From: Acorus gramineus
Lineage: Eukaryota; Streptophyta; Magnoliopsida; Acorales; Acoraceae
Assembly (NCBI GenBank): GCA_030737835.1
Contig: CM060855.1
Coordinates: 5,822,478-5,886,477, forward strand
Direction: 5' to 3'
DNA length: 64,000 nt
Of the stretch, positions 890 through 3,969 are shown in pieces. A program made the translations under genes and the position numbers. The notes below the pieces were generated by a model, which was given only the letters and a program-made list of their open reading frames with translations, was not told the DNA's origin and made no database searches. Numbering within the stretch: the first letter of the stretch is position 1; the number at the start of each line of letters is the position of its first letter.

Positions 890-3800
890 TCAATCGATCA
901 CGATGACATTCTTTTGAGATTTGGAGATTTTTATAAAATACTTCTGAGCGTGGCTTGCGATTTGGGATGGAGTCCTTGACTTTACACAATGTCTACTTAT
1001 GCTCCTCCAATCTCCCTTTCCATATAGCTCTAGCCCTTTAAGAAATCCCCTGGTTGTATAACAATCATCAAAATATTTAAAATAAAAAAATTGATGCATT
1101 ATCCTATGGAGCTTGTATGATCAAAACTGGGTGGCAAAAACAATGAATATGTGGTACACTATAAACTAAATATAATTAGATGTTTATGGTTTATTGGATT
1201 GCTCATCAAATACAAGTAATCAATATATTGGTATATTGAATTCAATAATTTATTTTAAAAAAATAAAATCCTTATATATAACATAATGTTTTCATGCAAC
1301 TTGTATTTTTATGATTGATAATAATATAAAAATGTATATTAAATTTGATATAAAAAAAAAAGATTACTTACTTATGCTCATCTGGCGTCCAACGGCGAGG
1401 TTTTCTCTGCACCCTACGACCATTCGCTCTTGTCACAGAAGGCATAACCACCTCTTGCCACCATAGTTCCTTCTCCATCTTCATCTCTTCCTCTCCATTA
1501 TTTTCAACACCCACAACTTCATCATTGTTGGTGGTGTTGTTGGAGATGACAAATTGTTCCTCCTCCATCTCTTTCTCCCCTCCATTTTCGACACCCACAT
1601 TATTTTCAACACCCACAACTTCATCATTGTTGGTGGTGTTGTTGGAGATGACAAATTGTTCCTCCTCCATCTCTTTCTCTCCTCCATTTTCGACACCCAC
1701 ATTATTTTCAACACCCACAACTTCATCATTGTTGGTGGTGTTGTTGGAGATGACAAATTGTTCCTCCTCCATCTCTTTCTCTCCTCCATTTTCGACACCC
1801 ACAACTTTATCGTTGTTGGGGAAGAAAGTTTGAATGTGATCTTTCATACATCGATCAAATTCATCTAAAACATCTTCACCATTTTCTAGTTCTCCAATAA
1901 ACGAGGATGAAGATGATGAGACATGTTTGAGACCCACGTCTTGATTGATTTCCTCAGCATTCACGGCTTCATCATCGTTTAAGAATTGATTCCAATCCTC
2001 CATTCCACATAGCCCCGGCCCTTTAAGAAATTCTCTGGTTGTATAACAATTACCATATAATTTTAGATGTATATATAGTATAAAAATACATGTAAAAACT
2101 TTAATGTAAGGCAACGATGATGATTATAATTAGTTTTTTTTTTTAATTATAAAAGTTGTAATAAATTATCCAAACAAAATATGTATATGGGATAAGGTAA
2201 TCAAAGTTACTTTTTAAACATTAGAGCACGTACCTATGTATGGCATAACTAAATTTGTCTGAGGTTTTTCATTATTAGAATAAATTAAATGGATGTTTTA
2301 AAACAAAATACTTTGTTACAAACATGCATGAACTTCTTGGAACTTGTATTGCCAACATGGATTGAGAGGCATAAAACAAATACATGATACACTATAAACT
2401 AAATAATTTTATGTTTATGTTTTACATGAATGCTCATCAAATACAGGAAACAGTATATCCACTTCAACAGTTTATATTTAAAAAAAATCAAATTTTAGGC
2501 TAACGTTCTAGATTGTTCATTGTTCCTTGTATATGCTTATATATGTTAAATTCATTACATACACTGTACAGTGTACTTATTATAATTTAAATAATGGGTT
2601 TTTGCATATATACCATAAAAAAATATGGTATTTATTTTTATATCACCACAAATAACGTATTTATTTATACCATTAGAATTTTTCTTAATATAAAAATGTG
2701 CCCCTCTTTTATCATTTTTAACTAAAATGAACCTTAACTATAATTAGTTTCTTAACCAAAAAGTAAAAATGACAAAAATAATTTGAACATAAAATATTTG
2801 TCATAATGTAAATAATTAAAAAATAATAACCTAAATAATTTCATGATCTTTCCAAATCAATCGTGAGCCATTCAACCTTACCCCTATTTCATTTTCTTCC
2901 AACCAAGATCTAATTTTAAAAAAAAAATTGCCATTTTGTAATATATATGATTAATGGTTCTCAGAATAATTTTATTTCATTTTTACTAATATAGTTATTA
3001 ATAATTGTTATTTCTTTGCTAATAAACAGTTGTATGATTAATTTTTATGTTTTTGAATTTTAGATGAGATTTATCATTTTTCATGTTCAAATTAATATTT
3101 TTTATTTTTATAAATATTGTATTTGGTAAGGTAAAATATGCCAAAAAATAATAATAAGGGTAATTTGGCCTTTTCTCAAAGACTTTAACTGTTTTAATGG
3201 AAATTTGGATGGAAGTTAACTAGGATGGTACATATGCATAAGTTCTATATATTTCAATAGTATAAAAATAAATATGTTATTTTGGAGTGGTATAAAATTA
3301 AATAGGATGTGTTTGGATGATATACATGCCAAAAACCCTTAAATGAACCTCTTTTATATAAGTATATGTATTCCTTATATATAACACAATCATTCACTGT
3401 GCATTACCATATATACAATCTAAATATCTCTTATTAGATAATAGTTGTATCTTTTAACTAATTTTTTATCTTAAAATTGAATTTAAATAAACTCATAAAA
3501 ATAAAATCATACATTGAACGTTTTTGTAAAATAAAAGTATAGATAAATTTTATGGCTTATATGATTGATAACAATATTAAAACTTATATTAAACCAGGTA
3601 AAAGGAAAGAAAAAGAAAGGAAAAGATTACTTACGCATGCTCTTCTGGCGTCCAACATTGCGGCTGCATCTCTTCCTCCACAACATGTTCAACACCTAAA
3701 ATTTCCTCATTGTTGGTGTCGATTTTCTCTCCTGCATTTTCGATACCCACAGCTTTCTCGTCGTTGGTGTCATTGTCGGGTACGACGATGTGAGTGTTGT

Positions 3801-3969
3801 ACCACTTTTCAATATCATCTACAATTTGTTGACCAATATTGCGCAGTGTTTCATCAATAGAGAGCGACGAAGACGACGGGACATGCATAACACCCATATT
3901 TTGATTGGTGTTCTCAGCATTCACGACTTCTTCGTCGTTTAAGAACTGTTCCCAATCAAAATCATTCAT
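890..3969 (-). CDS. SHAQKYF-type single-repeat MYB transcription factor, copy 1
   Basis: Predicted nuclear DNA-binding protein of the plant 1R-MYB (DIVARICATA/MYBS-like) class, 385 aa. Exons inferred: 3969-3635, 2034-1372, 1049-890; all borders are GT-AG and phases agree. Exon 1 is acidic and ends in WTPEEHA. Exon 2 opens with a decayed half MYB repeat ([14 protein letters not shown]), restarts an exon-1-like acidic region, carries three 34-aa repeats and ends in RRWTPDEHK. Exon 3 completes the only intact MYB repeat, residues about 325-373, with GDWRSIS and SHAQKYF. Introns 1 and 2 share sequence (tacactataaactaaat near 1157 and 2388). Another reading is two genes, one starting at MEDW in exon 2, with exon 1 orphaned. 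The DNA target is not deducible; family members bind TATCCA/GATAA-type boxes. The function of the doubled acidic region is unknown. Confidence 0.75.
1501..1805 (-). repeat. In-frame 102-bp coding minisatellite in MYB copy 1
   Basis: Three head-to-tail units start at about 1501, 1603 and 1705, almost identical in DNA. Each encodes 34 residues containing [20 protein letters not shown] and VVGVEN. The length is a multiple of three, so repeat number changes the protein length without breaking frame. Copies 2 and 3 have two units of about 84 bp in the same place. Confidence 0.9.

Follow-up and report, generated by a model that had tools for sequence, protein, structure and literature searches.

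The locus and its gene copies

The window, that is, the whole stretch of 64,000 nucleotides of Acorus gramineus DNA analysed here, contains on its minus strand a three-exon gene (positions 3969-890, exons A, B and C; the gene model was made by reading of the sequence), together with two further copies of identical layout at 14520-12200 and 19227-16954, which we call copies 2 and 3 (Table 1). When exons A, B and C were compared with the 64-kb window by tblastn, each of them was found three times, and among these matches there was neither an A-C gene without B nor any unfused parent gene. In the three copies exon A has its start codon and a GTAAG donor, all splice sites have GTAAG donors and CAG acceptors, a TATAAAT lies 61–68 nt upstream of the exon A ATG, and the A-B-C frame is open from end to end (385, 352 and 346 amino acids in copies 1, 2 and 3), as is the frame that joins A directly to C (164, 169 and 163 amino acids). 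A misreading confined to one copy is ruled out by the concordance of the three.

Copies 2 and 3 are situated in direct blocks of 4.2 kb (11160-15337 and 15904-20101) with an identity of 93.3%; copy 1 has diverged further from them than they have from each other, and an HD-ZIP gene lies between copies 1 and 2. The promoter-only remnant listed in Table 1, whose match stops 36–39 nt short of the start codon of the copies, and in which no exon was found either by tblastn with the three exons or by comparison of the window with itself, looks like a truncated further copy.

Exon B carries in-frame tandem repeats, three units of 102 nt in copy 1 (1496-1803, 99% matches) and units of 84 nt in copies 2 (12832-13078) and 3 (17569-17808), the unit length not being equal across the copies.

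Table 1. Position of the exons, introns, junction and related features of the gene copies in the window
Feature	Position	Strand	Remarks
Copy 1 exon A	3635..3969	-	335 nt; ATG at 3969; ends in WTPEEH and a phase 2 donor, GTAAGT
Copy 1 intron 1	2035..3634	-	1600 nt; homologous to intron 2 in collinear blocks
Copy 1 hybrid exon B	1372..2034	-	663 nt; phase 2-2
C-like left part of exon B, copy 1	1998..2034	-	second piece of the half MYB repeat; 34/43 including GATTGG
In-frame ATG (MEDW...) at the exon B junction, copy 1	2001..2003	-	in three copies; candidate B-C start
Junction GATTGG (Asp-Trp), copy 1	1992..1997	-	shared, within copy 1, with exon A (3957-3952) and with exon C (1012-1007)
A-like right part of exon B, copy 1	1372..1991	-	holds the 102-nt repeats and the basic linker before WTPDEH
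Copy 1 intron 2	1050..1371	-	322 nt
Copy 1 exon C	890..1049	-	160 nt; remainder of the SHAQKYF MYB repeat, then stop
Copy 2 exon A	14189..14520	-	tblastn and reading
Copy 2 hybrid exon B	12745..13293	-	549 nt; junction GATTGG 13256-13251
Copy 2 exon C	12200..12377	-	tblastn and reading
Copy 3 exon A	18896..19227	-	tblastn and reading
Copy 3 hybrid exon B	17475..18023	-	549 nt; junction GATTGG 17986-17981
Copy 3 exon C	16954..17113	-	tblastn and reading
Promoter-only remnant, apparently of a further copy	8995..9526	-	similar to the sequence upstream of copies 1-3; TATAAAT present

The hybrid exon and its junction

A preliminary description of copy 1 had held that the middle exon begins like the last exon and then, at a shared GATTGG, changes to sequence like that of the first, and this is what is found: the strings that it quoted lie where it had placed them, exon B of copy 1 agrees with exon C through GATTGG in 34 of 43 bases and with exon A from GATTGG onward in 54 of 66 (ungapped), and in each copy the best switch point falls at GATTGG within a few bases. 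The switch from C to A scores within 1 of its maximum at offsets 35–46 in copy 1 and 35–45 in copies 2 and 3, with GATTGG occupying 37–43; the six bases stand at offset 37 in both exon B and exon C of all three copies, and in exon A at offset 12 in copy 1 only, copies 2 and 3 having GATTTG there. The agreement with exon C through GATTGG is 29/43 in copy 2 and 28/43 in copy 3, and that with exon A is 32/66 in both, a low ungapped figure behind which lies a 3-nt gap in the alignment past GATTGG. Across the 60 bases beyond GATTGG exon B matches exon C at 16, 18 and 17 (copies 1, 2 and 3), and across the 12 bases ahead of it exon B matches exon A at 0, 1 and 1.

The control consisted of 200 dinucleotide shuffles per comparison. 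In none of the three copies did a shuffle reach the score obtained for the right part of exon B with exon A, and none reached that of the left part with exon C in copy 1; in copies 2 and 3 this last score was reached by 16 and 32 shuffles, so that the DNA match is not significant there, though length and phase agree. The cross controls remained at shuffle level, both for the right part against exon C (102, 93 and 80 of 200) and for the left part against exon A (74, 146 and 124 of 200). Chance similarity as the source of the hybrid pattern is thus ruled out, except for the left part against exon C in copies 2 and 3. Moreover, an identity of at least six bases occurs at random A × C junctions in only 0.17% of 44100 positions, and therefore the GATTGG common to A and C is probably not idle.

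The ATG at the junction is in frame in the three copies, with GGA before it and G after it. If a gap of 6 nt is allowed, the start of exon A, its ATG included, can be aligned by eye with this ATG at about 10 of 12 bases; the exon B ATG may descend from the start codon of exon A, in which case the join would shift a few bases upstream.

The two introns

Whether introns 1 and 2 align significantly had been named beforehand as one of the points at which the preliminary description could fail, and they do: their alignment scores are 106, 127 and 119 in copies 1, 2 and 3 against shuffle maxima of 50, 55 and 45, none of the 200 shuffles reaching the score in any copy, and the introns are thus homologous. 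In BLAST the two introns of each copy align in two collinear blocks; in copy 2 intron 1 exceeds intron 2 by about 280 nt between the blocks, with extra sequence also near its 3′ end. In copy 1 the two introns share their final 14 bases, and each has the donor GTAAGTAA, so that the choice of splice site may be loose. A comparison of the window with itself (at least 100 bp, E ≤1e-10) gave no match of intron 1 to sequence preceding exon A or following exon C.

Intron 1 of copy 1 alone contains an insert of 743 bp (2596-3338), without which copies 2 and 3 align; it has imperfect inverted ends (GGGTTTTTG...) and an ATTTAA near either side, and we take it to be MITE-like.

The encoded proteins

The predicted proteins would belong to the SHAQKYF class of MYB proteins, as indicated by TIGR01557 and PF00249. 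The literal SHAQKYF motif is present in all three copies, and the A-B-C form of copy 1 scores 63.2 bits with TIGR01557 (cut-off 29.3) and 60.8 bits with PF00249 (cut-off 24.4), the latter being a whole-protein score that sums two stretches and includes the half repeat described below. The shorter forms are above the cut-offs as well: 53.4, 55.9 and 56.8 bits with TIGR01557 for A-C in copies 1, 2 and 3, 54.0, 52.2 and 55.0 bits for B-C, and 44.2–51.2 bits with PF00249 for both forms of the three copies. The intact repeat is made up of the end of B and of C, and its core tryptophans are 20 residues apart in each copy (W327-W347 in the A-B-C form of copy 1, W288-W308 in copies 2 and 3). When the A-C protein of copy 1 is compared with the sequences of solved structures, the best match is 6nvz, a SHAQKYF-family protein (E 3.8e-10).

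The other peculiarities that had been ascribed to the protein, a doubled acidic region and a half MYB repeat preceding the single intact one, also hold. The net charge is −23, −22 and −21 in A and −36, −26 and −26 in B (copies 1, 2 and 3). In the half repeat of copy 1 two tryptophans, W106-W126, have the spacing of the intact repeat; with PF00249 it reaches 15.0–17.1 bits, below the cut-off, over profile positions 2-24 of 46, and with TIGR01557 12.8 bits in copy 1, likewise below the cut-off, with no match in copies 2 and 3. Because this first repeat stops at position 24 of the profile, a complete second MYB repeat is ruled out, and the at least two complete repeats of a multi-repeat MYB (R2R3 or R1R2-type) are not present. 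The third helix of the MYB repeat is the one that reads DNA, and as the sequence of the half repeat stops past the second core tryptophan, it probably cannot bind DNA. Exon B further contains a basic linker, NGRRVQR(K/N)P(R/Q)R, ahead of WT; exon A has none, and an A-C protein would thus lack it.

Order of events

A tree built from the A-like part (about 210 nt) separates the three A sequences from the three B sequences with 100% bootstrap, and the hybrid exon therefore arose once, before the array. The event that had been described as the birth of copy 1 by fusion is thereby placed in an ancestor of the three copies and not in copy 1. The introns also divide into intron 1 and intron 2 across the copies (94% bootstrap); however, in the intron block the distance from intron 1 of copy 1 to intron 1 of copies 2 and 3 is 0.246 and 0.254 and to the introns 2 it is 0.211–0.256, and since these values overlap the order that the introns give is weak.

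Synonymous divergence (dS) and dN/dS were calculated by NG86, codons with gaps being omitted and counts being rounded for Fisher's test. Between A and B, dS is 0.42–0.50, about 0.46; from copy 1 to either copy 2 or copy 3 it is about 0.24, with 0.34–0.37 for A and 0.22–0.27 for the right part of B (two alignments); between copies 2 and 3 it is 0.016–0.042 over A, the right part of B and C, about 0.03.

Coding constraint

When copy 1 is compared with copies 2 and 3, dN/dS is 0.49 and 0.48 for the whole gene (p 0.0007 and 0.0003), 0.45 and 0.47 for exon A (p 0.016 in both) and 0.47 and 0.41 for the right part of exon B (p 0.013 and 0.004), and judged by this constraint exons A and B look coding. 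For exon C the values, 0.71 and 0.70, are not significant (p 0.51 and 0.75), nor are those obtained when A is compared with B inside copy 1 (0.62, p 0.11) and inside copy 2 (0.60, p 0.097); the left part of exon B, of 14 codons, has no power, its frame staying open in 1553 of 2000 neutral runs. The gaps between copies 1 and 2 are multiples of three in 6 of 6 cases in the exons as against 3 of 25 in the introns (0/8 in intron 2, and 3/17 in intron 1 once the insert is set aside). Of 2000 runs with neutral substitution at 13% (copy 1 versus copy 2), 9 left the full frame open; for B alone, at 11.5%, 206 of 2000 did so, and for A alone, at 17.5%, 267 of 2000.

Copies 2 and 3 are separated by 24 replacement and 6 silent changes (dN/dS 0.97, p 1), as neutral sequence would, and their open frames are uninformative, being retained in 571 of 2000 neutral runs at 2.9%. 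One or both of these copies may be decaying, since the differences between them look unconstrained.

Origin of the hybrid exon and alternative explanations

The locus is probably best explained as a small SHAQKYF-class single-repeat MYB gene of plant type with an old, in-frame internal duplication, most simply produced in one step and followed by copying of the gene. The ancestor would have been a two-exon gene, with A running from the acidic region to WTxEEH and C containing the remainder of the MYB repeat; a tandem duplication with its ends in the GATTGG of exon A (Asp-Trp, near the start) and in that of exon C (GDW) would have given the series A, intron, C-start/A, copy of the intron, C; and the whole A-B-C gene would then have been duplicated at least twice. 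The segment is indeed repeated, the introns are homologous and there is a short identity at the join, all as an intragenic tandem duplication would leave them, although the two-gene route predicts the same.

That second route, proposed in the preliminary description, supposes that two tandem A-C genes were fused by a deletion from the GATTGG of the first C to the GATTGG of the second A. Its hybrid exon, its switch at GATTGG and its homologous introns are borne out, but the fusion of two genes as such is not established, given that a single duplication from the GATTGG of A to that of C predicts the same DNA. The two accounts differ in origin alone and the confidence placed in the one overlaps with that placed in the other; we prefer the one-step duplication because it needs one event in place of two, the support for it being parsimony only. 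Against the fusion it can further be said that no A-C gene devoid of B is among the tblastn matches in the window, and that intron 1, as seen in the comparison of the window with itself, does not match what lies before exon A or after exon C. Nevertheless, the whole-gene duplications and the promoter-only remnant keep it a serious if minority candidate: with three full tandem copies in place, an ancestry from tandem A-C genes is plausible, and truncation of copies does occur at this locus.

Two further alternatives concern what the array now does, and both seem unlikely. There could be nested genes sharing exon C, in which B-C would have its own start (ATG GAG GAT TGG), A-C would be a second transcript and the C-like stretch an untranslated relic. 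The junction ATG in frame in the three copies would suit this, as would the possibility of aligning it with the start of exon A; the B-C reading frame gives a complete MYB protein that includes the basic linker (263, 231 and 225 amino acids), both B-C and A-C pass TIGR01557 in every copy, and the constraint on A and B fits equally well as it does for an A-B-C gene. However, the acceptor of exon B (TATACAACCAG) and its phase are kept in the three copies, as would befit a splice site in use; ahead of exon A there is a conserved TATAAAT, and ahead of exon B, by eye, TATATATA in copy 1 only; and intron 1 resembles intron 2 and no promoter. It is about equally improbable that the hybrid protein has no function and that the copies are drifting in a decaying array, as could be read from the neutral dN/dS between copies 2 and 3 (0.97), the scores of the half repeat under the cut-offs, the transposon-like insert found in the first intron of copy 1 and the truncated remnant in the window. 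What speaks against decay is the constraint seen when copy 1 is set against copies 2 and 3, the exon gaps in frame in 6 of 6 cases versus 3 of 25 in the introns, and the 9 of 2000 neutral runs that keep the frame open, evidence that covers the past and not necessarily the present.

Possible transcripts

If the gene with the internal duplication is used as its structure suggests, the promoter of exon A, with its conserved TATAAAT, would drive a transcript spliced A-B-C, whose product of 346–385 residues would contain two acidic regions, a half MYB repeat and one intact repeat, and would bind DNA through the latter. The intron phase is 2 at both positions and the length of the hybrid exon is a multiple of three, and hence the exon is symmetric and preserves the frame; without it, too, the SHAQKYF MYB is complete, and some transcripts could omit B and give a protein of 163–169 residues with the same DNA-reading half and no basic linker. 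The junction ATG, for its part, may start a B-C form.

Since the exon is symmetric and the splice sites that flank it are near copies of each other, it is conceivable, though rather doubtful, that exon B has been kept as a splicing switch, one promoter giving rise to A-C, to A-B-C and perhaps to B-C; as all these forms would have the same DNA-reading half, the long and the short ones would compete. Were this so, a partial MYB repeat in a multi-copy lineage would represent a halfway stage of repeat gain.

Comparison with known systems

Tandem MYB genes, intragenic duplication and chimeric MYB transcripts are known kinds of thing. The closest known system that we found is the CPL4 (TCL2)-ETC2 pair of Arabidopsis, tandem single-repeat MYB genes for which inter-genic chimeric transcripts are described (PMC3317723); in one of these, Chimera 2-1, exons 1 and 2 of CPL4 are spliced to exon 3 of ETC2, and at least two chimeras, CPL4-alpha and CPL4-beta, should according to the authors yield complete MYB proteins. 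The likeness lies in the head-to-tail arrangement of single-repeat MYBs, in the joining of their exons and in a complete MYB protein, such as an A-C form would be here. In contrast, the Arabidopsis genes are of the R3 CPC type, are separate in the DNA, 2590 bp apart, and are joined by splicing only, whereas in Acorus the join is in the DNA, within an exon, and the class is SHAQKYF. With the SHAQKYF class (TIGR01557) the genes share one complete repeat above the cut-off in all three copies, and the A-B-C form differs by the second acidic region and the half repeat placed in front.

The ‘gain’ model derives multi-repeat MYBs from intragenic duplication (PMC3462118), which likewise would put MYB sequence ahead of the repeat; unlike in that model, no multi-repeat domain has resulted here, because only half a repeat was added. 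In animals, domain gain has been attributed to gene fusion that joins exons of adjacent genes (PMC2926785), and there too adjacent exonic sequence is joined or recombined after duplication, but the gains are of new domains, chiefly at the ends of proteins, whereas in the Acorus gene the join is within an exon and no complete new domain was formed. Among the matches listed from the open-access literature there was no SHAQKYF MYB with a hybrid exon, nor this gene, which as evidence is weak.

In this locus we have a clear and datable instance of two exons from one type of gene combined into a single exon at an identity of six bases, with both parent exons and both copies of the intron still legible within the same gene. 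The scar of the duplication, present in three neighbouring genes, is old, in frame and still translatable, and the gene documents a half MYB repeat that was carried and not lost. If it is spliced both ways, it would show how a transcription factor can gain, at a single step and by duplication, an optional, frame-neutral exon.

Other genes in the window

The HD-ZIP gene between copies 1 and 2 (7105-7711) has a homeodomain and a HALZ leucine zipper above the cut-off, and the open reading frame next upstream of it (7659-8057) matched no Pfam family. Five open reading frames that were scanned elsewhere indicate three further neighbours, given here with provisional limits, which together with the HD-ZIP gene suggest that the window is plant-like DNA: a PCFS4-type zinc finger gene with a CID-like stretch (22410-26290; CID below the cut-off), a prephenate dehydratase gene in a single long exon (39326-40651) and a gene of the xanthine/uracil-permease family (49859-52544).
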